From NCBI GenBank assembly GCA_028688015.1, contig JAQTZB010000003.1, forward strand, positions 310,001 to 374,000: 64,000 nt of DNA, given 5' to 3'. The position numbers and the translations under genes are program-made. Under the pieces are notes generated by a model. The model was not told the DNA's origin, ran no database searches, and worked only from the letters and a program-made list of their open reading frames with translations. How positions within the stretch are numbered: the first letter of the stretch is position 1; each line of letters starts with the position of its first letter. This DNA comes from Elusimicrobiales bacterium. Lineage in GTDB: Bacteria; Elusimicrobiota; Elusimicrobia; Elusimicrobiales; UBA9959. Positions 16,605 through 34,606 of the stretch are shown one piece after another.

Positions 16605-16655
16605 AGCGGCTTTGCCCGGCGGGCTTACTCCAAAATTGATAAAATTCATTACACG

Positions 16656-17864: not shown

Positions 17865-17928
17865 CCTCCCCCGGGGCCTCCGGATTTGGGATAATGTAGT
17901 TAACAACCGAAGTTCCAAGGATAAACCC

Positions 17929-19617
<1,689 letters not shown>

Positions 19618-20832: not shown

Positions 20833-21666
20833 ATGTGGAACTATACTGAAAAAGTGTTCGATCATTTCAAAAACCCCCGCAACGTGGGCGAGGTAGAGAA
20901 GCCGGACGCCGTGGGCGAGGTGGGCAGCATAGTCTGCGGCGACGCGCTGAAGCTTACCCTCAAGATAGACAAGGCCAGCGACACCATAACCGACGCCAAG
21001 TTCAAGACCTTCGGCTGCGCCAGCGCCATAGCGTCTTCTTCCGCCCTGACCGAGATGGTCAAAGGCATGAAGCTGGAAGACGCGGCCAAGATCACCAACC
21101 AGCAGATAGCGGATTTCCTGGGCGGCCTGCCCGGGGAGAAGATGCACTGCTCCGTGATGGGGATGGAAGCCCTGGAGGCCGCGATAAAGAACTACCGCGG
21201 CGGCAAGGCCGAGAAGGTTATAGTCGGCATGGCGGAAAAGGTGGTCTGCAAATGTTTCAGCGTCACCGAGAACGCCATCCTGAAGGCCATAAAGGTGAAC
21301 AACCTGAAGACCGTGGAAGAGGTCACCAATTTCACCAAGGCCGGCGGCGGCTGCGGCCAGTGCAAAGGCGAGATAGAGAAGATCCTGAAGGACTACTGGG
21401 CCGAGGCCGAGCATAAGAAGTTCGCCGCGATGACCGTGGTCGAGAAGATCAAGATGATAGAGAAGGTGCTGGCCGAGGAGATCAACCCCAAGCTGAAGGC
21501 CGACGGCGGCTGGATGGAACTGGTGGACGTACAGGGCCAGAAGATAAAGCTGCGCTTCCTCGGCATGTGCCACGGCTGCCCGTCCTCGGGCGCCACGCTG
21601 AAGAACGTGGTGGAGAAAGAGCTGCGCGAGCGCATCGACCCGGCGATAGAAATAGAAGCGGAGTAG
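20833..21666 (+). CDS. nifU: NifU Fe-S cluster scaffold protein
   Basis: The 277 aa protein has the full three-part NifU layout. An IscU-like domain (residues 1-125) has Cys in VCGDALKL, FGCASAIA and HCSVMGME. A central [2Fe-2S] BFD-like module (about 135-185) has VCKCFS and GGGCGQCKGEI. A C-terminal Nfu domain has MCHGCPSS. It assembles Fe-S clusters and passes them to apo-proteins. nifS follows after 8 nt. No nitrogenase genes are present, so the pair is the general Fe-S system. AGAGG lies 7 nt before ATG. Confidence 0.95.
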   Translation: MWNYTEKVFDHFKNPRNVGEVEKPDAVGEVGSIVCGDALKLTLKIDKASDTITDAKFKTFGCASAIASSSALTEMVKGMKLEDAAKITNQQIADFLGGLPGEKMHCSVMGMEALEAAIKNYRGGKAEKVIVGMAEKVVCKCFSVTENAILKAIKVNNLKTVEEVTNFTKAGGGCGQCKGEIEKILKDYWAEAEHKKFAAMTVVEKIKMIEKVLAEEINPKLKADGGWMELVDVQGQKIKLRFLGMCHGCPSSGATLKNVVEKELRERIDPAIEIEAE

Positions 21667-21674
21667 GGGGGGCT

Positions 21675-22880
21675 ATGGACAAGGTCTATTATTTCGACAA
21701 TAACGCCACCAGCCGCGTGGCGCCGGAAGTGGCCAGGGAGATGGAGCCGTTCTTCAACGACCTCTACGGCAACCCGTCGAGCATGCACTTCTTCGGCGGC
21801 GGCAACCAGAAATACCTGGACCTCGGCCGCGAAAGGGTGGCCAGGCTGCTGGGCTGCGAAACCTCTGAGATAGTCTTTACCAGCTGCGGCACCGAGGCCG
21901 ATTCCACCGCCATCTGGAGCGCCCTGCGCTCCTTCCCCGAGAAGAAGCATTTCATCACGACGAAGGTGGAGCACCCGGCGGTGCTCAACGTCTTCAAATA
22001 CCTGGAGACGCAGGGCTACCGCGTCACCTACCTGCCGGTGGACAGCACCGGTCAGATAAATTTAGAGGACCTGAAGGTCGCGCTCACGCCGGAGACCGCG
22101 CTGGTCTCCATCATGTGGGCCAATAACGAGACCGGCGTGGTCTACCCCGTGGAGGAAGCCGCCCGCATAGTTCACGCCAAGGACGCGCTGTTCCACACCG
22201 ACGCCGTGCAGGCCGTGGGCAAGCTCCCCATTAACCTCAAAGAGACCAAGATAGACATGCTGAGCCTGTCGGGCCACAAGCTGCACGCGCCGAAGGGCAT
22301 AGGCGTGCTCTATGTGCGCAAGGGAGCGCGCTTCGCGCCGTTCCTGATGGGCGGCCACCAGGAGCACGGCCGCCGCGCCGGCACCGAGAACGTGCCGTAT
22401 ATCGCAGGTCTTGGCAAGGCCGCCGAGCTGGCGCAGAACAACCTGGAGAAGGAAAACACTTACGTGAAGGGCCTGCGCGACCGGCTGGAAGCCGGCCTGC
22501 TGAAGATAAATAATTCCCGCGTAAACGGCGGCGGCACTGTCCGTCTGCCCAACACCACCAACATCAGCTTCGAGTACATCGAGGGCGAGAGCATCCTGCT
22601 GATGCTGAGCGAAAAGGGCATCTGCGCCTCTTCCGGCTCAGCCTGCACGTCGGGCTCGCTCGAGCCGTCGCATGTGCTGATGTCCATGGCCGTGCCCCAG
22701 ACCTACGCGCACGGCTCGGTGCGTTTCTCGCTGAGCGTCTACAACACCGAGGAGGAAGTGGACTACATCCTCCGCGAGCTGCCGCCGATCATAGAGCGGC
22801 TGCGCGCCATTTCCCCGTTCGCCGACGGCAAGCCGCTGTTCGGCATGGACGCCTGCGAACCCCACAGCCACAAGCACTGA
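21675..22880 (+). CDS. nifS: Cysteine desulfurase NifS/IscS
   Basis: ATG at 21675 gives MDKVYYFDNNATSRVAPEV, the canonical start, and 401 aa. The PLP-binding lysine is in SLSGHKLHAPKGIG and the active-site Cys in ASSGSACTSGSLEPSHVL; the substrate-site HQEHGRRAGTEN is intact. It removes sulfur from cysteine to give a persulfide for NifU. The C-terminus has an extra His-containing tail (CEPHSHKH). The radical SAM gene starts 16 nt after its stop, so this operon could supply clusters for that enzyme. Confidence 0.95.
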   Translation: MDKVYYFDNNATSRVAPEVAREMEPFFNDLYGNPSSMHFFGGGNQKYLDLGRERVARLLGCETSEIVFTSCGTEADSTAIWSALRSFPEKKHFITTKVEHPAVLNVFKYLETQGYRVTYLPVDSTGQINLEDLKVALTPETALVSIMWANNETGVVYPVEEAARIVHAKDALFHTDAVQAVGKLPINLKETKIDMLSLSGHKLHAPKGIGVLYVRKGARFAPFLMGGHQEHGRRAGTENVPYIAGLGKAAELAQNNLEKENTYVKGLRDRLEAGLLKINNSRVNGGGTVRLPNTTNISFEYIEGESILLMLSEKGICASSGSACTSGSLEPSHVLMSMAVPQTYAHGSVRFSLSVYNTEEEVDYILRELPPIIERLRAISPFADGKPLFGMDACEPHSHKH

Positions 22881-22896: not shown

Positions 22897-23922
22897 ATGA
22901 ACTGGCTCGCCAAGAAAATATTGGAGTTCACCGGAAGCCAGAAGTTTCTGAGTGCGCAATTAGACATAACCGCCGCCTGCAACCTCGACTGCATTCACTG
23001 CTATCAGCCGTACCACGCTTCAGAGAAGGACCTTTCTCTGAGCGACTGGCGCTCGATATTGGACCAATACGGGCTGCTGATTGAAAAGCTTTATTTGCGC
23101 CCGAAGTTCTGCATCAGCGGCGGGGAGCCCACCATTAGCCCCATCTTTAGCGCCATCCTTGCCGAGCTGCATTCCAGGTGGCCGGGCGCGGACGTTACCG
23201 TGCTTACCAATGGGACAAGGCTTTCGTCGCAACTGGTTTCAGACCTGGCCAAGCACAAAGCGGATGTGCAGATCTCCTTGGACGGACCGGACAGGGAGAG
23301 GCACGATGCCGTGCGCGGCCCCGGGGTTTTCGAGAGGGCCCTGGCCGGGTTCGAGCTCCTTCGCGGGGCCGGACTCAGGGTAATCTTTCAGGCGGTGCTT
23401 TCGGACAGAACCGCCCCGTGGATCGAAAGTTTTTTTGCCTTGGCCGGGCAAAAGAACGCCGCAGCGATGAATTTTACCCGGTTCGTGCCGCAAGGCAGGG
23501 GGAAAGCGCTTTCGGAGAACGGCGGGGACCGGCCGCTGCTTGGTAAGGACCTTAAGGTTGCCTACGCCGCTATCGTAGAGGCTTCAGCCAAGAGCGGCGT
23601 CCCGACCGTCACAAATCAGCCGCTGTTCGCGCTGCTGTCGCCGGAACTGGGCGCGCATGGGAAATTCGGCTTCCAGGGGTTAATAATCGACCATAGCGGG
23701 AACCTTAAGGTAACCAGCAGGGCCGATTTTATACTTGGCAACGTCTTTGAGGCCGGGCTTGAAAAATTATTTTTAGATCACCAGGTAATGAAAGATCTCC
23801 GCAACGGTAAGATAGATGGTTGCGGGACCTGCAAAATATACGACCGGTGCGGCGGGGACAGGAACGCTTCTTTTGCGGCCTACGGCAGTTTTTTTAAAAA
23901 AGATCCGGGCTGTTGGCTGTGA
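22897..23922 (+). CDS. Radical SAM/SPASM-like enzyme, cassette A (peptide-modifying type)
   Basis: The 341 aa protein has the radical SAM motif CNLDCIHC (Cys28, Cys32, Cys35), followed by CISGGEPTISP, LTNGTRLS and QISLDGPDRERHDAVRG. The C-terminal part has a Cys-rich region (CGTCKIYDRCGGDRN and FFKKDPGCWL) like SPASM auxiliary-cluster domains. Such enzymes commonly modify ribosomal peptides. It is strongly similar along its length to the product of 27522-28553, with the same last ten residues. Directly downstream lies a 59-codon gene for a signal-peptide-bearing peptide, the likely substrate by position. Function beyond SAM chemistry is inferred. GC and codon use are visibly more relaxed than in nifS. 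Confidence 0.88.
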   Translation: MNWLAKKILEFTGSQKFLSAQLDITAACNLDCIHCYQPYHASEKDLSLSDWRSILDQYGLLIEKLYLRPKFCISGGEPTISPIFSAILAELHSRWPGADVTVLTNGTRLSSQLVSDLAKHKADVQISLDGPDRERHDAVRGPGVFERALAGFELLRGAGLRVIFQAVLSDRTAPWIESFFALAGQKNAAAMNFTRFVPQGRGKALSENGGDRPLLGKDLKVAYAAIVEASAKSGVPTVTNQPLFALLSPELGAHGKFGFQGLIIDHSGNLKVTSRADFILGNVFEAGLEKLFLDHQVMKDLRNGKIDGCGTCKIYDRCGGDRNASFAAYGSFFKKDPGCWL

Positions 23923-23928
23923 AAATTG

Positions 23929-23934
23929 TATAAT
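23929..23934 (+). promoter_or_regulatory. -10 element before small peptide A
   Basis: TATAAT at 23929-23934 lies 27 nt before the peptide start; no clear -35 is seen. It could give the peptide its own transcript in addition to read-through from the radical SAM gene. Confidence 0.4.
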
Positions 23935-23961
23935 TGGGACAGTAGGTGAGGGGTAAATATT

Positions 23962-24141
23962 ATGAAATCAAAAATTAAGCGGTGCTGCCTGATACTTTTG
24001 GCTATGTCTCCGATGCTTGCCGTGGCGTTTGCCGCCAGGTCGGCTTTGGCGATAGAGCAGATCCGCAGCGCTAACGCGACTGATCCGGACCTGGGGTCCT
24101 CTAACGCGGAGAGCTCCGGCGGCGTGCCGACCGATAAATAA
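23962..24141 (+). CDS. Small secreted peptide A, candidate radical SAM substrate
   Basis: ATG at 23962 is preceded by GTGAGGGG and encodes 59 aa. A basic start (MKSKIKRCC) and hydrophobic core (LILLAMSPMLAVAFAA) form a signal peptide. The mature part is short and hydrophilic (SALAIEQIRSANATDPDLG, then SSNAESSGGVPTDK) with no Cys, Tyr or Trp. It shares V-A-F-A-A-x-S-A-L and SGGVxT with the peptide encoded at 30222-30383. Position between a radical SAM enzyme and a solute-binding protein suggests a modified, exported peptide. The absence of Cys in the mature part argues against a sactipeptide-type thioether. Confidence 0.7.
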   Translation: MKSKIKRCCLILLAMSPMLAVAFAARSALAIEQIRSANATDPDLGSSNAESSGGVPTDK

Positions 24142-24160
24142 GCCCGTACGGAGCCGGTTC

Positions 24161-24244
24161 CCGGGCGGGTTCCTTCCTCTGGCTTAAGAGAAGCAACCGC
24201 CCGGTTCTGAATATTGGCGCCATTACATACGCGTGTAATGGCGC
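24161..24244 (+). promoter_or_regulatory. Two hairpins between peptide A and its solute-binding gene
   Basis: CCGGGCGG (24161-24168) pairs with CCGCCCGG (24197-24204). A perfect 11-bp stem pairs 24217-24227 with 24234-24244. No strong T-tract follows, so these may act as mRNA stabilisers or partial attenuators that keep peptide mRNA above downstream mRNA. Confidence 0.6.
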
Positions 24245-24268
24245 TAAATAATTGTGTGGGGCATATTA

Positions 24269-25804
24269 GTGAGAAAAAAATACTGGGGATTAATTGTGGT
24301 CTCCCTGGGAGGGGCGGCCCTATTCTTTGCGAGGGAATACATGTCCGAATCAAGATCGAATTACGTGATAGGCGTTCCGGCGTACTGGCAGACCTTGATC
24401 CCGCCGATACAGCACTCTCTTATCGGATTCGGCGTGATGGTGAACCAATTTGAACCGCTTGTTACGCGCGGGAAGAACGGTATCCTGCAGCCCCTGACCG
24501 CAGCCTCCTGGGACTTTAGCGCGGACCGCCGCGTGCTTCGTTTTAAAATAGATACTGCCCGCCGCTTTTCGGACGGGTCTTTTCTTTGTGCGGGAGATAT
24601 AAAAAAAGCCTGGGAAGACGGGCTGCGGATGCAGCCAAAGGCCACGAATAGTTCCCTGGCTGACGCGCTTGCCGGCTTAAAAGGCTTTTCTGAACTTAAA
24701 GAAAAAGGCGAAATAGAGGGACTGCGGGTTATAGGCCGGGATCTGCTGGAGCTTGAATTTGTGAAGCCGGTCCGCAGCGCGCTCGACCATCTGTCCGGGG
24801 TGCGGTATGCGGTGTATAAAATGTCCGGGGATATGGCTATCGGAACCGGGCCGTATGTGATAACTGAAAATAACCGGGAGCTGAGCCTGGTTCCCAATCC
24901 GTATTATGCCGGCGCTGCCCCCGGGCTGGCCAACGTTAAAATAATCGTAGTGCCCGGGGCCGTCGCCGCGGAGAAGCTGCGCTCAAAGGAAATAGACGCG
25001 CTGCTTTTTGTGGAAAACGTGAAGCTTGAAGGGTGCTCTGAAGGGCGGCTGGCGCCTGTGCGGTGCGCGTATGGCCAGGAGGGCACCCACCTGATAATTG
25101 CCCTTAACGGGCTGGGCGGTACATTTTTCTCAAACCGCGCTTACAGGCGGGCTTTTCAGGCACTCGTGTTGAAGCGCTTTGAAGGGGCAAAAGAAACCTG
25201 GCCGATTAAAGCCAACGGTTTCTTGAGCGATTCTCAAAGTTTCCTTAAGTTCCAGGCGGGACGCTTGCCAGATGCCGAGGCGCAGGCCATTGTCGCCGAG
25301 GGGGAGAAGCATATCCCTGAATTAATGGCAGCTGCTCAAAGCCGCCCTCTCGTGCTGTCGCAAAACTGGGAATGGCTGGTGAATTTCCTCAAGGAAAAAG
25401 GCGTCGGAGTAGAGAAAAACTTAAGAGCCAGCCTGGATGAAAAAGAAAGGCTGGAAATATATCATAAAACTTTCAAGACCGACGTAATGCCGATGACGGC
25501 CTCGGTGTATGACGGAGATCCCGACTGCCTTTACCATCTGCTGGGCCGCAACGGGGCGATCTACTCGCCTATGCTCGAAAGGCCCGCGGTGTCCGAAGGC
25601 TTGGAAGGGGGAAGGAAACTGCTTGATACCGAGAAGCTGCCGGAGTATTACTCCGGAGTCGCGCGAAAAATACTGGAAGAAGTCCCCTATGTCCACCTTG
25701 GCTATTACTACAGGGGCGTAGCCTACAATTCCGAGAGAATAAAAATAAACGACAGTTTCGGCAGCAGGAACAACCAGAACCTGACTATTTTTGACCCTAA
25801 CTGA
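24269..25804 (+). CDS. Membrane-anchored extracellular solute-binding protein (family-5-like), cassette A
   Basis: GTG at 24269 is chosen because GGGG lies 7 nt upstream and the product then begins MRKKYWGLIVVSLGGAALFF, a signal anchor. The in-frame GTG at 24254 lacks a ribosome site. The 511 aa protein has peptide-binding-protein features: VNQFEPLVTRGKNG, LRFKIDTARRFSDG, a long two-lobed body and VPYVHLGYYYRGVAYN near the end. No lipobox is seen and no ABC permease or ATPase is nearby, so it may present a ligand to a sensor rather than feed a transporter. It is closely related to the product of 28572-30128. Confidence 0.8.
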   Translation: MRKKYWGLIVVSLGGAALFFAREYMSESRSNYVIGVPAYWQTLIPPIQHSLIGFGVMVNQFEPLVTRGKNGILQPLTAASWDFSADRRVLRFKIDTARRFSDGSFLCAGDIKKAWEDGLRMQPKATNSSLADALAGLKGFSELKEKGEIEGLRVIGRDLLELEFVKPVRSALDHLSGVRYAVYKMSGDMAIGTGPYVITENNRELSLVPNPYYAGAAPGLANVKIIVVPGAVAAEKLRSKEIDALLFVENVKLEGCSEGRLAPVRCAYGQEGTHLIIALNGLGGTFFSNRAYRRAFQALVLKRFEGAKETWPIKANGFLSDSQSFLKFQAGRLPDAEAQAIVAEGEKHIPELMAAAQSRPLVLSQNWEWLVNFLKEKGVGVEKNLRASLDEKERLEIYHKTFKTDVMPMTASVYDGDPDCLYHLLGRNGAIYSPMLERPAVSEGLEGGRKLLDTEKLPEYYSGVARKILEEVPYVHLGYYYRGVAYNSERIKINDSFGSRNNQNLTIFDPN

Positions 25805-25870
25805 CAATTCCTCCTCCGAATCGCGTGCGCAGTCCCGCCGCCTTTGACGGCCGGCCCGGCCGCAGGGGGG

Positions 25871-25902
25871 GCAAAAAAAGAGGCGGGCAGAGCCCGCCTC
25901 CG
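25871..25902 (-). terminator. Terminator at the end of the minus-strand cassette B
   Basis: A 9-bp stem (25880-25888 with 25892-25900) is followed on the minus strand by TTTTTTT. It lies between convergent cassettes A and B. Confidence 0.85.
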
Positions 25903-25918
25903 TTATTGCCGACCAGGC

Positions 25919-27508
25919 TCAGGCCCAGGGAGGTTCTTTCCCGGTCACTTTCAGCCAGGGTAGGTGGGAAAATTTCTCCGGCGCGTGGCCGGTGGCCAGG
26001 GAGATATCCGTATAACCATTATCATGCAGGTTCACGGCGAGGTCTTCGCCGCGAACGGCACCGCCCAGTTCAGAATCTATGAAGACCGGAATATCTCGCG
26101 GCAGGGCGGCGACCGCGGAGGCGAATTCCTCCGGGGTCCTGCAGGAAGTTAACTCCGCACCGGCGGCCTTGGCGGCCATCCGCCAGTTCATATGCACCAG
26201 TTGGTCGTCGTCCAGCAGCACCGCGCGCAGTCCCGGGGCCGGTTTCGCCGCGGCCGGCAGGTCGATGGTTACCGCAGTGCCCTTGCCGGGCGAGGACTCT
26301 ATCCGCAGGCCGCCGCCCCAGCTTTCCACGCTGGTGCGAGCGTGGTAAAGGCCTAGGCCGGTGCCCCCGGCCTTGCCGTGGGTCTCTCCTTTCCGGCCGA
26401 GCCTGGCCAGCACTTCCGGCGGTATGCCTTTGCCGTCGTCCGCTACCGTCAGCAGCACCCTGCCGTCTTCGGCAGCCAGCCGCACGGCCACGCTGCCCGC
26501 GCCGGCCAGGGCCTCCACTGAATTATTAAGCAGGTTAGAAACTATGCGCTGCAGCTCCTTCGGGTCCAGGGCCGCTTTGGCCGCCGCGGAGGAATTAAGG
26601 AAATCTATCTTCAGACCGGTCCTGTCTTTGTGAAGCAGCCGCTTCTCGGCCACCACCTGTTCCACGAGCGGCGCCAGCGCGCAAGTTTCCACGCGGCTCT
26701 TCGGCTCGGCGCCGGGCGCGCGGTAGCGGTGCAGCAGGTCGTCGGCTATGCCCTGCATGCGGCCGACCGCTCCGTCGATAAGGGTGCGCTGGTCGGGGGA
26801 CAGGGCCAACCCCCTCGCGGCCGCGCCGAGCGCCGCCAGCGGGGACCTGATGTCGTGCGCCACCTGCGCGCTCAACTGAAGCAGCGCCGCCGCCGACGCC
26901 TGCTCAGATACCAGCCGCATGCGGTCCAGGTTCTTCTGCCTGAGGTCCTCCAGTTCTGCGACAGAGAGCGCCTCCGTGTTAGCCAGCCCTTCGCTGAGCG
27001 GCAGGAGGACTTCCGCGCGGAACCTTTCGCGCATCCGTGCAAATGAGTACAGGGCCACGGCCATCAGCAGCCCCGCGGCTAATACCAGGAGCGCCAGGGG
27101 TTTCAGGAGCGACAGTATGGAAAAAGCCGCGAGGAACTCGTAATTCTGGAGGCCGACCAGCTGTTTCCGGAAGACCCAACTGAACGCCCAGCGCCCCGGG
27201 GAGGAGCAGTACGCCGAACTCTCCGGCGGATAGGCTATAAGCGCGGACCGGCCCGAGCACAGGGCCACTCCGACTACGGTCTCCCCGTCGAGAACGCTCA
27301 TCATCGCCGCCTCTATGAGCGGCCTGTTCGACTGCTGTACGCCAAGGGAAATGCTATCTCGAACCCGGCCTATCCGGTCGTACTGTTCCGAGTAGCGGTT
27401 GTAGGAGATGTGCCCGAGATAGGCGGCCCCGCAGCAGACAGAAAGCAGGAGCAGCCGCGCCAGCGGACGCTGCACGTTTTTTTTTGTCCAATCCTTCAGT
27501 GTGATCAT
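25919..27508 (-). CDS. Hybrid histidine kinase with receiver domain, cassette B
   Basis: The start at 27508 (MITLKDWTKKNVQRP) gives 529 aa; the upstream extension overlaps the radical SAM gene and is rejected. Transmembrane helices at about 15-31 and 129-155 enclose a periplasmic sensor of about 100 residues with Cys84 and Cys101, which could form a disulfide. HisKA follows with VAHDIRSPLAAL (His218), then HATPase_c with NLLNNSVEAL, DDGKGIPPE and GGTGLGLYHAR. The C-terminal receiver-like domain starts LRAVLLDDDQLVHMNW, carries Asp in VFIDSELGG and ends TGKEPPWA. From HisKA onward it is very similar to the kinase at 32927-34606; the sensor parts differ. Confidence 0.88.
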   Translation of the reverse strand: MITLKDWTKKNVQRPLARLLLLSVCCGAAYLGHISYNRYSEQYDRIGRVRDSISLGVQQSNRPLIEAAMMSVLDGETVVGVALCSGRSALIAYPPESSAYCSSPGRWAFSWVFRKQLVGLQNYEFLAAFSILSLLKPLALLVLAAGLLMAVALYSFARMRERFRAEVLLPLSEGLANTEALSVAELEDLRQKNLDRMRLVSEQASAAALLQLSAQVAHDIRSPLAALGAAARGLALSPDQRTLIDGAVGRMQGIADDLLHRYRAPGAEPKSRVETCALAPLVEQVVAEKRLLHKDRTGLKIDFLNSSAAAKAALDPKELQRIVSNLLNNSVEALAGAGSVAVRLAAEDGRVLLTVADDGKGIPPEVLARLGRKGETHGKAGGTGLGLYHARTSVESWGGGLRIESSPGKGTAVTIDLPAAAKPAPGLRAVLLDDDQLVHMNWRMAAKAAGAELTSCRTPEEFASAVAALPRDIPVFIDSELGGAVRGEDLAVNLHDNGYTDISLATGHAPEKFSHLPWLKVTGKEPPWA

Positions 27509-27521
27509 TCTGGAATCCGTC

Positions 27522-28553
27522 TTACAACCAGCAGCCGGGGTCTTTTTTGAAGAAAGTGCCGTAGGCCTCGAAAGAGGCGTTCCTGTCGCCGCCGCATTTC
27601 TCGCGGAACCGGCAGCCGGCGCAAACTTCCACTTTGCCCTGTCGGAGCGCCACAAGTACCGGGTGTTTCATGAAGAGCGGCTCCAGGCCGGACTCTAAAA
27701 CATTGCCGAGCCGGAAATCCACGCGGCTGGAAACCTTCAGGTTCCCCAGGTAATCTATCACGAAGCTCCTGAAGCCCGTTTTGTTGTTCATGCCCAGCTC
27801 AGGGGAGATCAGGACGAAGAGCGGCCGGTTCGTAGTTGTATACACTCCGGTCCGCTTGGAGGCTTCCAGGATAGAAAGATAGGCGGCCTTGAGCGCTTCC
27901 TTGTAGAGCGGGGCGTCGCCGCCCGAGTCATAAAGGTTTCGGCCCTGCCCCTGCGGCACGAACCTCGCGAAATTCATGCCTTCTACCCGGCTGCGGGCGG
28001 CCAGGTCGAAAAACTCTCCGATAAAGCCCGCCGTGCGCTTGGAAAGCACGGCCTGGAATGTGACGTATACCCCGGATTCACGCAGCACCCCCAGGCCGCG
28101 CATGGTTTTTTCAAAACTGCCCTGGCCGCGGATAAAATCGTGCGAGTCCGCCGCGGGTCCTTCGAGGGAAAGCTGCACTTTCGCCCTGGCCGCGGCTATT
28201 TCCCGCACTGCCTCTCGGGTAAGCGCCGTGCCGTTGCTCAAAACGGCGATCACGGAGTCTGGATACTTCCCGCGAAGCTCCCGCAGGAGCGGGAGGAATA
28301 GCGGGCTGATTGTCGGCTCCCCGCCGCTGAGGCAGAAATGCGGCGTCAGGCGGAGCTTCTCCGCGAGGGCGGAGACCTGCCCGAGGATCTCCCGCCATTT
28401 ATCTAGGCTGAGATCTCCGGCGGCCGAGTGCTCGCCCTGGTAGCAGTGCCTGCACCTGAGATTGCACGCGTTCGTGATATCCAACTGCACGAGTATCGTC
28501 GTCTGCGCCCCGATGAGGTTCAGCAGCCAGCCCGTTATCTTTTTCTGAATCAT
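27522..28553 (-). CDS. Radical SAM/SPASM-like enzyme, cassette B
   Basis: The 343 aa paralogue of the enzyme at 22897-23922 has the CxxxCxxC motif CNLRCRHC (Cys30, Cys34, Cys37), CLSGGEPTISP, LSNGTALT and QLSLEGPAADSHDFIRG. Its Cys-rich C-terminus has CAGCRFREKCGGDRN and ends FFKKDPGCWL. The two enzymes share conserved NFxRFVPQGxG and ISPELG blocks, so they probably act on similar substrates. The gene starts 18 nt after the solute-binding gene and ends 13 nt before the histidine kinase gene, giving the order peptide, binding protein, radical SAM, kinase. Confidence 0.88.
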   Translation of the reverse strand: MIQKKITGWLLNLIGAQTTILVQLDITNACNLRCRHCYQGEHSAAGDLSLDKWREILGQVSALAEKLRLTPHFCLSGGEPTISPLFLPLLRELRGKYPDSVIAVLSNGTALTREAVREIAAARAKVQLSLEGPAADSHDFIRGQGSFEKTMRGLGVLRESGVYVTFQAVLSKRTAGFIGEFFDLAARSRVEGMNFARFVPQGQGRNLYDSGGDAPLYKEALKAAYLSILEASKRTGVYTTTNRPLFVLISPELGMNNKTGFRSFVIDYLGNLKVSSRVDFRLGNVLESGLEPLFMKHPVLVALRQGKVEVCAGCRFREKCGGDRNASFEAYGTFFKKDPGCWL

Positions 28554-28571
28554 CTTTGTCGGCGCACGGCG

Positions 28572-30128
28572 TCAGTTCGGCTCAAAGGAAAGAAGGCTGT
28601 AGCTGTCCCGGTTCAATAGCCCGCGTTTTAACCGCAGCCTGGCCGGATTATAAGCGACCTTCCGGTACAGGTAGCCCAGGTGGACGTAGGGGACCTCCCG
28701 CAGTATTTCCCGCGAGACCCCCTTATAGTGTTCCGCAATCCGGCCCTGTTCGAGCAGCATACGGCCTTCCTCGAGCTTGTCCGCCACCGCGGCGCGCTCC
28801 AGCATGGGGGAAAATATCGCCCCGTTGCGTCCCAGCAGGTGGTACAGTCCGTCCGGGTCCACCTCCGTAACCGAAGCCCTGGCCGGGAGGATATCCGGCT
28901 CGAAGGTCTTGTACATCATTTTAAGCCAGTCTTTTTCCTCGAAGTCGCCGCGGGACTTTTCGGAGACCGAGAGCCCGGCCTCCTTCAGGTAGCCGGCCAG
29001 CCAGTCCCAGCCGGTTCCGGACATGATCAACAAGGGCCGGGCAGCGGTATCGGCGATGAGTTTCTTTATGCCTGGCTCCCCTTCCTTGATTATTGCCGCC
29101 GCTTCTCCATCGTCCAGCCTTCCGGACTGGAACGGCAGGTAGCTTTGCGGATCGCGCAGGAAACCTTCCGTCTGGAAAGACCTGGTCCAGGCTTCATTGT
29201 TCTTGTCGAATACCTTGAGCATGAGCGCCTGAAAGGCGCGCCGGCTCGCGGAATCGGAGAAAAAGCGCCCCGGCCTGGCGTTAAGATTCACCACCAGGTG
29301 CGTTCCTTCCTGGCCGAAAGCGGCCGCGATGGGGCCGGCGTCCCCGCCGAGCCCTGGCGCCGCGTCGGCTTTCTCCGCGAAGAGCACGAGGTCTACCTTG
29401 CCGGCCTTTACCCGGGCGAGGGCTTCGGAAGCGGGGAGGGGAACTATCCTCGCGCGGCGCAAGGCAACCGCCTCGCCGGAATAATATTTGTTGGGGGAGA
29501 GCGTCAGTGTTTTATCCGCCTCCTCGATAACGTACGCTCCGGTGCCTATGGGCCTGCCGCCGGAAATTCTGTAGGCGGCATAGCGGAGGCCGGACAAGTG
29601 TTCCAGCGCACTCCGGACAGGCTTCTCGAATTCAAGCTCCAGCACGCCGTCCGAGCCGGCCTTGACTCCGGAGAGCGCCCCGGTCTTTTTGAAGTCCTCC
29701 ATCCCGTGCAGGTTGGCGAAAACATCCACTAGCGAGCTGTTGTTGGAGACGGGCTGCATCCGGAGGCCGTCCTCCCAGGACCGCTTGAAATCCGCGGCCG
29801 AAAGGCTGCCACCGTCGGAAAACCTGCGGGAAGTATCTATGAAGAAACGTATGGTTTTCCTGTCAGCGGAAATATCCCAGGCCTTGGCGGCCAAGGGCTC
29901 GATAAGGCCTTTTTTGCCGCTCTTTACAAGCGGTTCGAACTGGTTTATCATGACGGCGTCGCCCACAAGGGAGTGCTGCAGCGGCGGCATGAGGGTGTGC
30001 CAGTAGGCATGAACGCTTACGGTATAAGTATCGCTGGTTTTATTCATAATTCTGGCCGCCAGCAAGCCGGCGACGGCTGCCGCTCCGGCGGCTGCGATCA
30101 CCCAAGCGGATTTGGCGGGTATGTTCAC
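28572..30128 (-). CDS. Membrane-anchored extracellular solute-binding protein (family-5-like), cassette B
   Basis: GTG at 30128 is preceded by AGAGG at suitable spacing and gives 518 aa. The N-terminus (SAWVIAAAGAAAVAGLLAA) is a signal anchor. The remainder parallels the cassette A protein closely: HAYWHTLMPPLQHSLVGDAV, INQFEPLVKSGKKGL, FFIDTSRRFSDGG, AFGQEGTHLVVNLN and VPYVHLGYLYRKVAYNPA. The fold is that of oligopeptide-binding proteins. As with its paralogue there is no transporter gene around it; a kinase gene in the same operon suggests a sensory role. Confidence 0.82.
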   Translation of the reverse strand: MNIPAKSAWVIAAAGAAAVAGLLAARIMNKTSDTYTVSVHAYWHTLMPPLQHSLVGDAVMINQFEPLVKSGKKGLIEPLAAKAWDISADRKTIRFFIDTSRRFSDGGSLSAADFKRSWEDGLRMQPVSNNSSLVDVFANLHGMEDFKKTGALSGVKAGSDGVLELEFEKPVRSALEHLSGLRYAAYRISGGRPIGTGAYVIEEADKTLTLSPNKYYSGEAVALRRARIVPLPASEALARVKAGKVDLVLFAEKADAAPGLGGDAGPIAAAFGQEGTHLVVNLNARPGRFFSDSASRRAFQALMLKVFDKNNEAWTRSFQTEGFLRDPQSYLPFQSGRLDDGEAAAIIKEGEPGIKKLIADTAARPLLIMSGTGWDWLAGYLKEAGLSVSEKSRGDFEEKDWLKMMYKTFEPDILPARASVTEVDPDGLYHLLGRNGAIFSPMLERAAVADKLEEGRMLLEQGRIAEHYKGVSREILREVPYVHLGYLYRKVAYNPARLRLKRGLLNRDSYSLLSFEPN

Positions 30129-30155
30129 GGAAGAGCCTCTGGAGCGGGGGGGCGG

Positions 30156-30197
30156 GGAAAAAGAAAGCCGGCCGGGATATTACTCGCCGGCCGGCTG
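30156..30197 (-). terminator. Terminator/attenuator between peptide B and its downstream operon
   Basis: On the minus strand GCCGGCCGG pairs perfectly (30187-30195 with 30167-30175) and is followed by TTTCTTTTTC. It lies between the peptide stop (30222) and the binding-protein start (30128), so most transcripts should stop after the peptide gene. Confidence 0.75.
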
Positions 30198-30221
30198 TAA
30201 AATACCAGCCCCTGGTACAGC

Positions 30222-30383
30222 TTATTTGTTGTCGTTATTGCCGTTAGACCAGCTCACGTCCGAGGCCGTATCGACGCCGCCGCTGACCTGCTCCTGGTTG
30301 GAGGTCAAGGCCGACTGGGCCGCGAAAGCAACGGACGAGATCGGCAGCAGGGCCAGCGCTATCAGGATAATCTTTTTAACCAT
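30222..30383 (-). CDS. Small secreted peptide B, candidate radical SAM substrate
   Basis: The start at 30383 (MVKKIILIALALLP) is preceded by AAGGGGGAA and gives 53 aa; a longer in-frame reading from 30416 lacks a ribosome site. A signal peptide runs to VAFAA, followed by SALTSNQEQVSGGVDTASDV and SWSNGNNDNK. The mature part has no Cys, one Trp and an Asn-rich tail. It shares VAFAAxSAL and SGGVxT with peptide A at 23962-24141. It heads the minus-strand operon with its own promoter and an attenuator behind it, the usual arrangement for an abundant precursor or secreted peptide. Confidence 0.72.
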   Translation of the reverse strand: MVKKIILIALALLPISSVAFAAQSALTSNQEQVSGGVDTASDVSWSNGNNDNK

Positions 30384-30449: not shown

Positions 30450-30556
30450 CAAAAAAGGGAAAGCAAAAAAATGTTTTGCTTTCCCTGGGTACATCCGGTT
30501 ACGGCCGGATCGTGGATACTCTGGGGCCAATCCCCCAAATTACAAGGAAGTGCTAC
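30450..30556 (-). ncRNA. Candidate small RNA of about 105 nt upstream of peptide B
   Basis: An extended -10 (TGTTATACT, 30571-30563) predicts a start near 30556, and a perfect 13-bp terminator stem (30456-30468 with 30474-30486, then TTTTTT on the minus strand) ends it near 30450. Between them are two further hairpins: GGGG/CCCC (30532-30535 with 30523-30526) and ATCCGG/CCGGAT (30505-30510 with 30493-30498). No reading frame with a ribosome site is seen. The promoter core is identical over 12 nt to that of the A-poor RNA at 363-737. Confidence 0.6.
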
Positions 30557-30574: not shown

Positions 30575-30765
30575 GGCGCCTGTCTTGGGTAGGGTCCTTG
30601 GACCCAGAAGCGCATAGGTCCTTTTCCGGAACGCGTTTTGGGGCCCGGCGCAGCGGTGCGGGGCCGGGAGTCGTCCAATAATGTATGATATTCCCGCCGG
30701 GTTCACTGATAGCGGGCTGGAGGCAGTCCGGCCCTTCCGGGGAACAAAGACGGCTTGCCGGGAAC

Positions 30766-31503
30766 ATGAAACTTAAAGCTATACTGCAACTTGTCTTTCC
30801 GCTCCTGCTGTCCTTCGCGGCCGCGGCCTGTTCCCTTCCGCGGGCGGAGCAAGCGGAGCCCGCCAAGGCGGCCGCTCCGCGCAGTTTCAACTATCTGCCT
30901 CCGGAGCGGTTCGCCGCCTTGCCTTTCCAGCCCCCCCCGGAGGCGGCCTCAGAGGGGCAGGCGGCGGACCTGGCCGCCGTACTGGCCTGGCAGGAAAAGC
31001 GCACCCGGGCTGACTGCGAGCGGGCGGCCGCCGCCTCTTCCTTGTCCTTCGACTCTTTCTGGGGCGCCGAAAGTCCTTTCGGGCCCGCGCAGGAAGGAGA
31101 AGTAAAGGAATTCTTTGGCCTCGTGGCCTCCGACCTGGGCAAGGCCGTTACCGCGGTAAAGGACCGCTGGCGTCGGCCGCGGCCCTATGAGGCCTATCCC
31201 GGCCTGGTGAACCCCTGCATCGGCCGGAGCTCCGGCCCTTCCTACCCCAGCGGCCACGCCGCCTTCGCCCGCGTGTTCGCGCTGGTGCTGGCCGACATCG
31301 CCCCGGAAAAGAAGGGCGCGTTCTTCGCGAAAGCCGGGGAGATAGCGGAGAGCCGCGTCATCAGCGGGGTTCATTACCCGACGGACGTCGCCGCGGGCGT
31401 GTCCTTCGGCGAGATTTACCACGCCGAGTTGCTCAAGTCGGGAGACTATCTCACCGGAATCGAGAGAATGAAAGCGCTGCGCGCTTGCGGCAGCGCTCCG
31501 TAG
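30766..31503 (+). CDS. Class A acid phosphatase lipoprotein (PAP2 superfamily)
   Basis: The start at 30766 (MKLKAILQLVFPLLL) gives 245 aa with a probable lipobox (SFAAAAC, Cys about 22). The family signature is complete: KDRWRRPRP, SYPSGHAAFAR and SRVISGVHYPTD. It is a paralogue of the enzyme at 5915-6679 and differs by having the canonical Ser-Arg. It probably acts in the periplasm, tethered to the outer membrane. The gene is 23 nt before the solute-binding-like lipoprotein gene, so phosphatase, binding protein and kinase form one operon. Confidence 0.87.
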   Translation: MKLKAILQLVFPLLLSFAAAACSLPRAEQAEPAKAAAPRSFNYLPPERFAALPFQPPPEAASEGQAADLAAVLAWQEKRTRADCERAAAASSLSFDSFWGAESPFGPAQEGEVKEFFGLVASDLGKAVTAVKDRWRRPRPYEAYPGLVNPCIGRSSGPSYPSGHAAFARVFALVLADIAPEKKGAFFAKAGEIAESRVISGVHYPTDVAAGVSFGEIYHAELLKSGDYLTGIERMKALRACGSAP

Positions 31504-31526
31504 ATTTGTTAGTATGCTAAAGGAAA

Positions 31527-32933
31527 ATGGCTGTTCATCGCTGTAAAAACGGGGCCATGGCCCTGGTGGCTTTCGCCCTGGCACTCTGCGGTTGCCGTGG
31601 GGAAAAGACCGCGCGCTGGGAGGTCCTGCTGATGGGGCTGCCCACGGAAGTCCGCGCCTCCAAGGCGTCGGAAGGCCCCATGTACTATATACTGAAGCAG
31701 ACGCACGAGCCGCTTTTCCGCAGGGACGACGGGGAGAACTATAGCTCCAGGCTCCTTACGACATGGAGCAGGAGTGTCCGATCCGACCGCTACCGCTTCT
31801 GCCCCGACACCTCGAAGCGGTTCAGCGAGGCCAGGCCCTTCAGCGCCGACTATTTCTACAGGTACATCGAGGCCGTTACCGCGAGGTACGGCCGCCAGTT
31901 CGTGGTGAAGCGGGGCTCCGGATGCGTGGAGGTGAGCTTTGACTCCAGCCAGAAAAAATACCTGGACTTCCTCACTTTGTATGAGAACGCGCCGACCGAA
32001 AACCAGTCCGGCTCGGTCGAAGTCGGGCTCGGGGAATTTTACGTGAGCGGCATGGGGGACGGCACCATAACGCTCAAGCGCAAAAGCCGCGTCGCCGGCG
32101 GCTTTGCCGAGATAGTCCTCAGGGAATATTTTCCCGCGAAGTCCAAAAGTTACGACTATGCGGGTATTTCCGATTTTAACAAGGTCCCGTTCACGGACAT
32201 TCCGCCGGAAGCGATGCGCGGTCATTACGGCTTCAGCAACATCGAACTTCATTCCGACGTCCTGATGATAAACCACCCGGATATCGCGGTCAGGGAACGG
32301 ATCTACAATTGCCTGGACGCGTCTAAATTCCGCAGCTCTTTCTTCGTGGAAAAGAGATTTTTTAATAATATAAAAAATATCCTCCCCGTCGGCATAGCGG
32401 GCGCGGCCGCAGGCCTGCCGCGGCAAAACTGCGGCTCCGGAGCGCGGTATTCAGGCGGCCGCCCGGAAGTGGTGCTGTTTAACCACCGCAACAATAATTT
32501 CAAACAGCTGGAGGAGATAGCCGGAGAGTTCAACGCCAGGACCGGCCTGAAGTTAAAGGTCTTCAGCCGCTCCCCTCTGGAGCTGGGAAAGCTGCTGGAT
32601 AAAACCCCCCGGCCTTACAACCTGGTGGTGATAAACCTGGGGACCTCGCTGCCGGAATACAGGCTCTTCTTCTCTTATTTTGTCCGGCCGGACGGATATT
32701 TCGATTCCCCCGATCCTGGGCTGAAGCGGCTTTACGCCGAGATCCTGAAAGAGGCGGACCCCGAAAAAGAGAGCCTGCTGGCGGCGCGCTTCGTGAGCGA
32801 GCTTCAGCGACTGTATCTGGCGCTGCCCCTGTCCCAGAACGTCCGCGAACTTTACTATCCTAAAAGCATAAAAAACCTTTATGTCGGGCGGGAATTTGTG
32901 GAAACCCCGGCGGTGGCGGACTTCAGATGGTGA
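31527..32933 (+). CDS. Divergent family-5-like solute-binding lipoprotein
   Basis: ATG at 31527 follows AAAGGAAA. The 468 aa protein has a signal sequence ending ALALCGC (lipobox-like). It shows the opening features of peptide-binding proteins: KQTHEPLFRRDDGENY, YRFCPDTSKRFSEARPFSADYFYRYIEAV. The body is clearly more divergent than the two binding proteins at 24269 and 28572, and four Cys beyond the lipobox are present. Its stop overlaps the kinase start, so the two proteins are made together. I infer it presents a ligand to that kinase. Confidence 0.72.
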   Translation: MAVHRCKNGAMALVAFALALCGCRGEKTARWEVLLMGLPTEVRASKASEGPMYYILKQTHEPLFRRDDGENYSSRLLTTWSRSVRSDRYRFCPDTSKRFSEARPFSADYFYRYIEAVTARYGRQFVVKRGSGCVEVSFDSSQKKYLDFLTLYENAPTENQSGSVEVGLGEFYVSGMGDGTITLKRKSRVAGGFAEIVLREYFPAKSKSYDYAGISDFNKVPFTDIPPEAMRGHYGFSNIELHSDVLMINHPDIAVRERIYNCLDASKFRSSFFVEKRFFNNIKNILPVGIAGAAAGLPRQNCGSGARYSGGRPEVVLFNHRNNNFKQLEEIAGEFNARTGLKLKVFSRSPLELGKLLDKTPRPYNLVVINLGTSLPEYRLFFSYFVRPDGYFDSPDPGLKRLYAEILKEADPEKESLLAARFVSELQRLYLALPLSQNVRELYYPKSIKNLYVGREFVETPAVADFRW

Positions 32934-34606
32934 AACTTTTCATCCGCATCCTCGCCTACAACTGGCGGCACTACGCGGCCGCGGTGCTGGTGTTCGTGGC
33001 CTTCTGGCAGGGTTTTTCAGCCTTCTCCGCCGTGCGGGTGGCCGACGACAAGCTGCTGACGGCGATGCGGCAGAACGCGGCCTACTTCGAGAAGGCCTTC
33101 CTTGAGGGCGACGTGTTCGAGACGCAGCGCATCATGTGGCGCATCAAGAACGACAATATCAAACGCCTCACTTTCCATCCCGTGCACTTCGAGGGCAGCC
33201 GCTGGATCTTCAAGGAGGCCATCGTCGGTAATCTCTACGACCGGCCGCGCGCGCAGATAACTCATGACGTGCCCTTCATCTCCAACGGCGCTGAGCTGGG
33301 GCGGCTGGAGTACGTGATAGACCTGGTGGACGTGAACGCCGCGGTGTTCGGCGAAAACTATATCCTGTTCATTACCGTGGTCTTCTTCTTCCTGAGCCTG
33401 CTTATCCTCTCCAACATGGGCGCCATCCAGACCCTGGCGGCCATAGAGCGCTCAGTGAACGAGATAAATTCCCTGACCGATTCCGGCAAGGGCGACATCA
33501 TCCGCGAGTCGATTAAAAAGAACATCGCGCGGCTGCCGGCGGGCATCATCGGCACGCCATTCGCGCAGATGACGGAGAGAATGAGCGACGCGCTGGGCCA
33601 GGCCGCCCGGCTGGAGAGCGAACTAGCCGTCAGCAAGGCCACCGCCGACATGGCCGCGCAGGTGGCGCACGATGTCAGGTCACCGCTGGCTGCGCTGGGG
33701 GCGGCGGCCAAGGGCCTGAACCTGCCCGAAGAGCAGCGCACGCTGATAGACGGAGCCATCGGCCGCATGCAGGGCATAGCCGACGACCTGCTGCAGCGCT
33801 ACCGCGCCCCGGGCGCGGCGGTAAAATCCAAAGTCGAGACGCACGCGCTGGCCGGGCTGATAGAGCAGGTGATAGCGGAGAAGCGCCTGCAGCACAAGGA
33901 CAAAGCCGGGGTAAAAATTAATTTTGAAGACGCCGCGCGCGGCGCCAAGGCCGCGGTGGACGCGAAAGAGCTGCAGCGCATGGTTTCCAACCTGCTTAAT
34001 AATTCCGTGGAGGCCTTCGCCGGCCCCGGCACCGTGAGCGTGCGCCTGGCGGCGCAAGACGGCAAAGTGCTGCTGGTTGTCGCGGACGACGGCAAGGGCA
34101 TCCCGCAGGAAGTGCTGGCTAAGCTCGGTCAAAAAGGCGAGACGCACGGCAAGGCCGGCGGCACCGGCCTGGGCCTGTATCACGCGCGGACTGCCGTGGA
34201 AAGCTGGGGCGGCTCGCTGAAGATAGCCTCCGAGCCCGGCAAGGGCACGGCCGTCAGCGTAACCCTGCCCGCCGCGGCCAGGCCGGCGGCCGGCCTGCGC
34301 GCCGCGCTGCTCGACGACGACGCGCTGGTGCACATGAACTGGCGGATGGCGGCGAAAGCCGCAGGCGCGGAACTCCAGTCCTTTAAAACTCCGGCTGAGT
34401 TCGCCGCCGCCGTGGAAAAACTGCCCCGCGATATCCCTTTATATATAGATTCCGAACTCGGCGACGGCGTTAAAGGCGAAGATATCGCCGTAGGCCTGCA
34501 CGAGCGGGGCTTCAGCGATATCACCATGGCCACCGGCCACGCCGCCGAAAAATTCTCCAAGCTTCCCTGGCTTAAAATCGCCGGCAAAGAGCCGCCCTGG
34601 GCCTGA
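32927..34606 (+). CDS. Hybrid histidine kinase with receiver domain, third unit
   Basis: The 559 aa protein has transmembrane helices at about 15-33 and 145-163 enclosing a periplasmic sensor of about 110 residues. A linker leads to the H-box VAHDVRSPLAAL (His248), HATPase_c motifs NLLNNSVEAF, DDGKGIPQE and GGTGLGLYHAR, and a receiver-like domain with LLDDDALVHMNW, Asp in LYIDSELGD and a GKEPPWA end. The catalytic half is nearly the same as in the kinase at 25919-27508, while the sensor is unrelated by eye. The start overlaps the binding-protein stop (ATGGTGA). Confidence 0.9.
   Translation: MVKLFIRILAYNWRHYAAAVLVFVAFWQGFSAFSAVRVADDKLLTAMRQNAAYFEKAFLEGDVFETQRIMWRIKNDNIKRLTFHPVHFEGSRWIFKEAIVGNLYDRPRAQITHDVPFISNGAELGRLEYVIDLVDVNAAVFGENYILFITVVFFFLSLLILSNMGAIQTLAAIERSVNEINSLTDSGKGDIIRESIKKNIARLPAGIIGTPFAQMTERMSDALGQAARLESELAVSKATADMAAQVAHDVRSPLAALGAAAKGLNLPEEQRTLIDGAIGRMQGIADDLLQRYRAPGAAVKSKVETHALAGLIEQVIAEKRLQHKDKAGVKINFEDAARGAKAAVDAKELQRMVSNLLNNSVEAFAGPGTVSVRLAAQDGKVLLVVADDGKGIPQEVLAKLGQKGETHGKAGGTGLGLYHARTAVESWGGSLKIASEPGKGTAVSVTLPAAARPAAGLRAALLDDDALVHMNWRMAAKAAGAELQSFKTPAEFAAAVEKLPRDIPLYIDSELGDGVKGEDIAVGLHERGFSDITMATGHAAEKFSKLPWLKIAGKEPPWA

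Follow-up and report, generated by a model that had tools for sequence, protein, structure and literature searches.

The window analyzed here is a 64,000-nucleotide stretch of the 3.34-Mb genome of an Elusimicrobiales bacterium (G000:C41:310001-374000), in which two related gene cassettes face each other. Both contain genes for a radical S-adenosylmethionine (rSAM) enzyme, a short precursor-like peptide, and a solute-binding protein (SBP). Cassette A, on the forward strand, has the order rSAM-peptide-SBP and no kinase; cassette B, on the reverse strand, reads peptide-SBP-rSAM-kinase. Both had been pointed out in a preliminary description of the sequence, and both are present. Its view that the paired genes are paralogues agrees with the pairwise comparisons, which gave 54% identity over 334 amino acids for the enzymes (E = 3e-138) and 51% over 491 amino acids for the SBPs. 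Its remark that the binding proteins are not part of a transporter likewise fits, as the window cassettes hold only the genes just named and no permease or ATPase. Going beyond that description, we find a 2'-deoxyguanosine-II (2dG-II) riboswitch at 30480-30550 (-) and a second SBP-kinase pair at 31527-34606 (+).

The putative maturases, A at 22897..23922 (+) and B at 27522..28553 (-), match Pfam Radical_SAM with 76.4 and 84.3 bits, respectively, against a cut-off of 29.5. A CxxxCxxC motif (C30, C34, and C37) and four C-terminal cysteines (C311, C314, C320, and C341) are invariant in 10 of 10 aligned sequences, with the interrupted or cut copies of G154, G111, and G135 omitted from the rSAM alignments. 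No named NCBIfam maturase family could be assigned: the best score was 103.4 against a cut-off of 500 for A (best 25 of 65 matching families) and 107.8 against a cut-off of 400 for B (best 25 of 63). The SBPs, A at 24254..25804 (+), possibly starting at GTG 24269, and B at 28572..30128 (-), each have an N-terminal hydrophobic anchor and match SBP_bac_5 with 77 and 89.2 bits against a cut-off of 32.4. A profile of this family, SBP1, matches solved peptide and nickel binders, and NikA is the best NCBIfam match for both proteins, far under its cut-off. The nearest structures to an AlphaFold model of SBP B (pLDDT 72.9, pTM 0.61) are MppA, NikA, CntA, OppA, and DppE; as the model is of moderate quality, only the fold was taken from it.

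The cassette B kinase (25919..27508, -; family F0) matches HATPase_c with 89.4 bits and carries H-box, N-box, and G-box motifs, with HisKA below its cut-off (22.5 versus 26.9). It had been called a hybrid kinase, of which the kinase part stands; a Pfam scan of the protein reports no receiver domain, Response_reg staying below its cut-off, so that the label rests on a divergent, receiver-like C-terminus ending in KEPPWA. Within these C-terminal 106 residues an acidic pair (D11 and D13), D56, T84, and K102 are invariant in all eight kinases aligned.

Peptide A (59 amino acids; 23962..24141, +) was aligned with 11 other peptides from the same slot. Peptide B (53 amino acids; 30222..30383, -) begins with an ATG that, by eye, follows a good ribosome site. 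The two show a weak likeness, 41% over 49 amino acids. As had been predicted, both have a signal sequence, and they form one family with ten others: the peptides of all 12 cassettes of this type, class 1 of the four described below, are 50 to 70 residues long and share a plan in which a hydrophobic signal part is followed by FAAQSALSxxQI or a variant and then by a variable tail. Cysteines and histidines are not conserved among them. A tryptophan-type cyclophane, suggested by a WSN motif in peptide B, was considered and dropped because the other 11 peptides lack the motif. Between peptide B and SBP B, a strong hairpin followed by a T-rich stretch (30158..30196, -) is a candidate partial terminator; the interval 30129-30221 folds with -38.7 kcal/mol (z -4.1 versus mononucleotide shuffles), and a hairpin in this position reaches z <= -4 in only 5 of 11 class 1 cassettes.

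Upstream of cassette B lies a 2dG-II aptamer (30480..30550, -; Rfam RF03165, 84.2 bits versus a gathering score of 60, E = 2.1e-20), which matches the model over its full length (positions 1-71 of 71) and lies 96 nucleotides upstream of the peptide B start. It is followed by an intrinsic terminator (30451..30485, -), a hairpin of -17.8 kcal/mol with a T-run, in which the 3' strand of riboswitch helix P1 serves as the 5' arm. Since ligand binding stabilizes P1, this overlap predicts transcription in the presence of 2'-deoxyguanosine, and the anatomy of the leader thus suggests an ON switch for this compound. Farther upstream, a palindrome, TGGGTCCAAGGACCCTA (30590..30606, -), precedes a TATACT -10-like box and is a candidate activator site; it has three mismatches to the pattern and, taken alone in the window, is not beyond chance.

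To establish how widely the gene set occurs, 340 genomes of the phylum were searched for the rSAM at E 1e-40 and, independently, for the SBP at E 1e-30. The rSAM is sparse, with 13 copies in 11 of the 340 genomes and 7 of 100 genera. The SBP has 12 copies, which occur in 10 of these 11 genomes and in none of the others, each near an rSAM gene; the thirteenth rSAM gene (G135) sits at a contig end. Every one of the 12 cassettes with both genes also holds a homologous signal-sequence peptide, and a kinase homologue lies beside the SBP or within the cassette in 11 of the 12, some of them cut by contig ends. The preliminary description had asked whether the enzyme and the binding protein co-occur in the phylum, and had regarded enzymes lacking a neighboring peptide or binding protein as an argument against a joint function; of the 13 enzymes in the family, 12 have the binding protein as a neighbor, and the remaining one is cut by the contig. 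We regard the conserved gene set as near certain to be real. The commonest order is rSAM-peptide-SBP-kinase, from which cassette B differs. Within the stretches fetched for three distant rSAM proteins from other phyla (L022-L024; 27-28% identity), no homologue of SBP1, SBP2, or the kinase turned up, which indicates that the linkage is specific to this rSAM family and not to rSAM genes generally. In one copy (G154:C92, L025), the rSAM gene is broken by an in-frame TGA and the kinase is split over two frames, so that these are pseudogenes or assembly errors; the SBPs and peptides of G154 and G111 were retained in the alignments.

A 2dG-II riboswitch at or over the gathering score lies upstream of 7 of the 12 class 1 cassettes, namely, cassette B and six sisters (G128 twice, G199, G188, G111 with exactly the gathering score, and G232 with one open reading frame [ORF] between). 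In the phylum as a whole, the aptamer is found at E 0.001 in 97 of 340 genomes and over the gathering score in 88; among 14 control genomes only Bacillus subtilis gives a match, below the cut-off. We compared 104 sites in 99 loci, eight of them in loci fetched for rSAM or SBP genes and the other 96 either chosen from the best riboswitch matches among those listed or adjoining such places; several places near contig ends were left out. A terminator-like hairpin whose 5' arm starts in the 3' strand of P1 is present at 88 of the 104 sites, a count made with no shuffled control. A kinase of the window family follows within 7.6 kb at 37 sites (30 of 96 without the eight), here called kinase-type, and 36 of these 37 have the hairpin. 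The palindrome TAGGYCCNAAGRCCCTT occurs within four mismatches at 30 of the 37 kinase-type and 29 of the 67 other sites, where mononucleotide shuffles average 0.25 and 0.36; a stricter pattern found no match in the window's own genome (controls 1 and 2).

Both a kinase and an SBP of one of four families follow 33 of the 104 sites (26 of 96 without the eight), and 31 of these 33 also hold an enzyme of a type known from ribosomally synthesized and posttranslationally modified peptides (RiPPs): the class 1 enzyme (rSAM1) in 7, a second family (rSAM2) in 17, and YcaO-like proteins of two families in 4 and 3. A class peptide was recognized by motif in 28 of the 33 and by alignment in two more, and two others have motif-less candidates. 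Four arrangements can be told apart: class 1, rSAM1-peptide-SBP1-kinase (n = 7); class 2, peptide-rSAM2-SBP2-kinase, in some cases with a GNAT-like or beta-lactamase-family gene before SBP2 (n = 17); class 3, peptide-SBP3-YcaO-like-kinase (n = 5, one without the YcaO-like gene); and class 4, peptide-YcaO-like-SBP4-kinase (n = 4, one without enzyme and peptide). rSAM2 is homologous to YydG epimerase structures (profile positions 6-285 of 290, E = 1.2e-25). The YcaO assignment is firm for the one class 4 member scanned, which exceeds the Pfam YcaO cut-off (30.3 versus 25.7), and weak for class 3, of which all four members match, with the two scores displayed (19.2 and 25.2) below 25.7; a close kinship of the two YcaO-like families was not supported by pairwise comparison. 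SBP1, SBP2, and SBP3 are distantly related in profile comparison (E about 3e-6), and the SBP2 profile matches the solved peptide and nickel binders weakly. Between riboswitch and kinase, the listed cassettes showed no gene for an ABC permease or an ATPase, in loci that were not scanned with permease models. A short precursor gene is paired with a dedicated maturase in 12 of 12 class 1 slots and in 17 of 17 class 2 cassettes with a kinase. That different RiPP-type enzymes fill one slot beside a small signal-sequence peptide speaks most strongly for the peptide as substrate of the enzyme. Sites without a kinase (e.g., L168, L147, and L158) include 10 of the 104 that precede a metallo-beta-lactamase-fold protein and 9 that precede a 298-residue family with no Pfam match; many first ORFs behind kinase-less sites have, by eye, signal-like starts.

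Covariation was analyzed in 14 class 2 cassettes with a complete kinase; L101, L107, and L149, in which the kinase is cut at a contig or stretch end, were dropped, and an earlier run of 17 cassettes including the cut kinases, which gave larger values, is superseded. In pairwise comparisons, the mature peptides average 26% identity, the SBPs 39%, and the rSAM enzymes 42%, compared with 79% and 72% for the N- and C-terminal parts of the adjacent kinase. The distances of SBP and rSAM are correlated with r = 0.83 (0.75 without near-duplicates; 0 of 2,000 permutations each), and peptide and rSAM distances with 0.56 (0.43 without near-duplicates; 7 of 2,000). None of the peptide, SBP, or rSAM distances correlates with those of the kinase. 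A variable module therefore sits on a constant kinase, which by itself does not prove the peptide to be the SBP's ligand.

Genes for further parts of a possible relay lie in other places of the genome. Of 61 relatives searched, 24 have a regulator that combines receiver and Sigma54_activat domains, with GAFTGA read in the G128 copy; that of the window's genome, of NtrC type, lies at C50:33774-35108 (Sigma54_activat, 183.3 bits). It is followed by a 60-residue protein with the sequence LLHDLRSKC.SLKSAAEL, which can be aligned with the H-box helix of the kinase and retains the histidine in 13 of 13 copies. Divergent from the regulator on C50 is a gene for a 355-residue sigma-54-like protein (Sigma54_DBD, 56.6 bits versus 22.8). 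In G198 and G176 (L028 and L030), the genes for the regulator and the H-box protein have a class 1 cassette immediately behind them; in G176 a contig end truncates the regulator. At L174 (8546-11532), the regulator is followed by two M16-family peptidases, candidates for peptide processing, and several relatives have similar genes.

Allowing for one mismatch, we find a -24/-12-type promoter, TGGCAY-N4-ATTGCT, before the sigma-like gene in 14 of the 15 rows with a recognized start; the 15 rows, from 21 loci, represent about 11 distinct places. Of the 37 kinase-type riboswitch stretches, 11 contain such a promoter, compared with 0 of the 67 others (a scrambled pattern gives 0 in both groups), a contrast that is partly phylogenetic because the kinase-type sites come largely from one genus. 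In the window's own genome, a refined pattern finds 11 sites versus 0 for the reversed pattern, and this pattern is not independent of the hypothesis because it was refined from related loci. Six of the 11 sites lie in front of precursor-like genes that form two tandem arrays on C50; rSAM genes come after each array, and those behind the first bear SPASM domains. The arrays (16623-18204 and 177517-177917; L200-L203, L206, L207, and L210) consist of precursor-like genes of 34 to 39 codons and are partly masked. The other five sites precede a clostripain-family protease gene, an ABC-transporter-like ORF (by eye), a 77-residue ORF, and two further ORFs. In L111 (G136), one run of ~8 kb holds a riboswitch, peptide, rSAM2, SBP2, kinase, sigma-54-type promoters, cysteine-rich precursor-like ORFs, and another rSAM gene.

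Cassette A starts 16 nucleotides downstream of nifS (ORF 21567-22880, likely start 21675, +; NCBIfam NifS, 608.2 versus 530.75), which is preceded by nifU (20833-21666, +; NCBIfam NifU, 342.6 versus 273.3). On the other side of the riboswitch, a divergent module on the forward strand (30685-34606) comprises a PAP2-family phosphatase with a lipoprotein-like start (30685..31503; Pfam PAP2, 49.5 bits versus 27.2), an SBP of the class 2 family, also with a lipoprotein-like start (31527..32933), and a second kinase of the same family as that of cassette B (32927..34606; 76% identity over 314 amino acids); no peptide or rSAM gene was seen in it. The SBP was placed by alignment with 18 class 2 SBPs and, searched alone against Pfam, has no match. 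Outside the window on the same contig, 26 of the genome's 77 Radical_SAM matches fall within ~62 kb (G000:C41:56762-119074).

Taken together, the observations make it somewhat more probable than the reverse that the cassettes form a modular, riboswitch-gated peptide-signaling phosphorelay. The gene content and its conservation, the riboswitch, its overlap with the terminator, the homologies, and the promoter motif with the genes behind it are observed at the level of sequence; peptide modification, export, binding, phosphate flow, and the response to 2'-deoxyguanosine are what we infer from them. When 2'-deoxyguanosine, a product of DNA breakdown, is abundant, the riboswitch would block termination and turn the cassette on, yielding precursor peptide, maturase, a periplasm-facing peptide-type SBP, and histidine kinase. 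The maturase, rSAM here and a YydG-like rSAM or YcaO-like enzyme in sister cassettes, would modify the precursor in the cytoplasm, and the peptide would leave by the general secretion route through its signal sequence, no dedicated exporter being present in the cassette. In the periplasm it may be bound by its own SBP, and the complex would control the kinase, from which phosphate would pass to the receiver-like tail, on to the 60-residue stand-alone H-box protein, and finally to the NtrC-type regulator. This regulator would act with the sigma-54-like factor encoded beside it, with outputs that may include the factor's own gene and the precursor-like gene arrays with their maturases. The earlier suggestion that a secreted peptide is sensed back gains strength, at the level of genomic inference, from the way SBP, kinase, and regulator are arranged and from the finding that other RiPP-type enzymes can take the place of the maturase. 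That description also knew of no system with this set, and no paper on the combination was found in the literature searched, which lies outside most subscription journals.

Besides the phylogenetic share in the promoter contrast, several observations weigh against such a relay. At its input, the sequences point to no particular modified residue, nor to a definite mature form in class 1, where conservation lies at the signal-peptide end of the peptide and the tail varies. Nickel complexes, heme, and opines are also among the ligands of the SBP family, and the correlation between peptide and SBP distances among the 14 class 2 cassettes is 0.42 (2 of 2,000 permutations) and only 0.18 without near-duplicates (206 of 2,000). 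The gate is not universal: cassette A lacks both riboswitch and kinase, a 2dG-II match over the gathering score is missing from 5 of the 12 class 1 cassettes (window A, G154, G198, G176, and G108), and, judged by eye among the matches listed, about 24 of the 40 best kinase places have no riboswitch within ~8 kb upstream. Within the relay, the kinase tail matches Pfam Response_reg weakly (13.4 bits versus 30.2), though in the right register, and has no convincing relative among solved structures, with eukaryotic kinases best (E = 0.006) and a receiver at E = 0.11. The 60-residue H-box protein stays below the HisKA cut-off (16.4 versus 26.9, E = 0.009) and no histidine phosphotransfer (HPt) model matched in three scanned. 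At the output, the genome's second Sigma54_DBD gene holds two stops and there is no third match, a strict promoter pattern finds 4 sites in the genome versus 1 and 2 in controls, hardly above control, and a looser form gives 49 matches, 37 of them distinct, versus 6 scrambled in all fetched loci. The regulator's presumed use of these promoters is read from adjacency. There is no sigma-54-type promoter within the window, so the window cassettes would have to act through the C50 regulator.

A bolder form of the signaling proposal, which we offer tentatively and hold to be rather less than an even bet, is that the riboswitch-gated modified peptides are pheromones: at least four interchangeable classes of peptide, maturase, and receptor would feed one constant kinase-phosphorelay-sigma-54 arm that fires arrays of RiPP precursors, with 2'-deoxyguanosine from DNA debris as the license. 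RiPP signals read by periplasmic SBPs would then control RiPP effectors.

The likeliest of the rival explanations, although still an unlikely one, is that the secreted peptides are antimicrobials resembling epipeptides or sactipeptides, and that SBP and kinase respond with tolerance or a counterattack when they detect a peptide made by the producer itself or by a competitor. The homology of rSAM2 to YydG points this way, as does the precedent of YydF, which is reported to act as an antimicrobial and to trigger an envelope stress response (PMC7026026). So do the sigma-54-type promoters, which lie before the clostripain-family protease gene and before precursor-like arrays that are followed by an MFS transporter gene. 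However, the listed cassettes showed no gene for immunity or efflux in the interval from riboswitch to kinase, and a near-constant kinase beside variable SBPs and peptides fits many signals entering one relay better than it fits damage sensing. A lower probability still attaches to an internal-state reporter, in which the success of the enzyme, as a function of iron-sulfur status, SAM, and anaerobiosis, would together with 2'-deoxyguanosine set the amount of modified peptide in the periplasm, which SBP and kinase would read in each cell for itself, with no signaling between cells. The position of cassette A directly behind nifU-nifS and the gating of synthesis by an internal metabolite are in its favor, whereas the YcaO-like enzymes that substitute for rSAM in sister cassettes would report other things, and the strong divergence of peptide and SBP is expected of partner-specific signals, not of a housekeeping gauge.

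Two further explanations are very improbable, and equally so. A peptide that chelates metal, with SBP and kinase sensing the complex, would suit the presence of NikA and CntA among the nearest SBP structures and of NikA as the best, far-below-cut-off NCBIfam match, but the SBP is equally close to the peptide binders MppA, OppA, and DppE, the listed cassettes showed neither an ABC permease nor an ATPase, and the class 1 peptides conserve neither cysteines nor histidines. A nutritional SBP that senses peptides from the environment, with small ORFs that have nothing to do with the enzyme, would agree with the mostly nutritional role of SBP_bac_5 proteins and with the poorly conserved peptide tails, but not with a homologous peptide in every class 1 slot and every class 2 cassette with a kinase, nor with the several RiPP-type maturase families that occupy the slot.

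The proposed phosphorelay can be compared with known systems. The Vibrio relay LuxP/LuxQ-LuxU-LuxO, which serves quorum sensing, is wired like the relay proposed here and shares with it an SBP-type periplasmic receptor, a kinase with a putative receiver-like tail, a small candidate phosphotransfer protein, an NtrC-type regulator with GAFTGA, sigma-54-type promoters, and several sensors per genome. In contrast to LuxPQ, the signal here is gene encoded, apparently a modified peptide made beside its receptor, and the SBP is of family 5; the small protein, unlike LuxU, resembles the H-box helix of the kinase; and the promoters precede precursor-like arrays, with a riboswitch as gate and no Qrr-like RNA identified. 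By SBP type and apparent signal, the system lies outside the LuxPQ family. Gram-positive autoinducing-peptide systems such as agr also combine peptide, modifying factor, and sensor in a variable cassette with a constant response arm, whereas here the phylum is another, the receptor is an SBP, the maturases are rSAM or YcaO-like, and the output is of sigma-54 type. The Bacillus YydFGHIJ epipeptide system (PMC7026026) likewise has a small precursor beside an rSAM enzyme, YydG, of which the class 2 maturase is a homologue. In the window, by contrast, the maturase is a different rSAM, the cassette shows neither a protease nor an ABC exporter, SBP and kinase are added, and the precursor has a signal sequence. 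The enzyme-peptide part resembles known rSAM and YcaO RiPP systems, with a window class that matches no named maturase family among those listed. The aptamer itself is a full-length match to the 2'-dG-II riboswitch (RF03165; PMC8872408 and PMC9295807); what differs here is that it is frequent in Elusimicrobiota and precedes peptide-SBP-kinase cassettes.

If confirmed at the bench, this would be a new kind of bacterial signaling circuit. It would link the 2'-dG-II riboswitch to a concrete gene set and would show RiPP-type chemistry being used for signals that are received by periplasmic binding proteins. The Elusimicrobiota, a phylum with few cultured members, would gain a predicted cell-to-cell signaling language.

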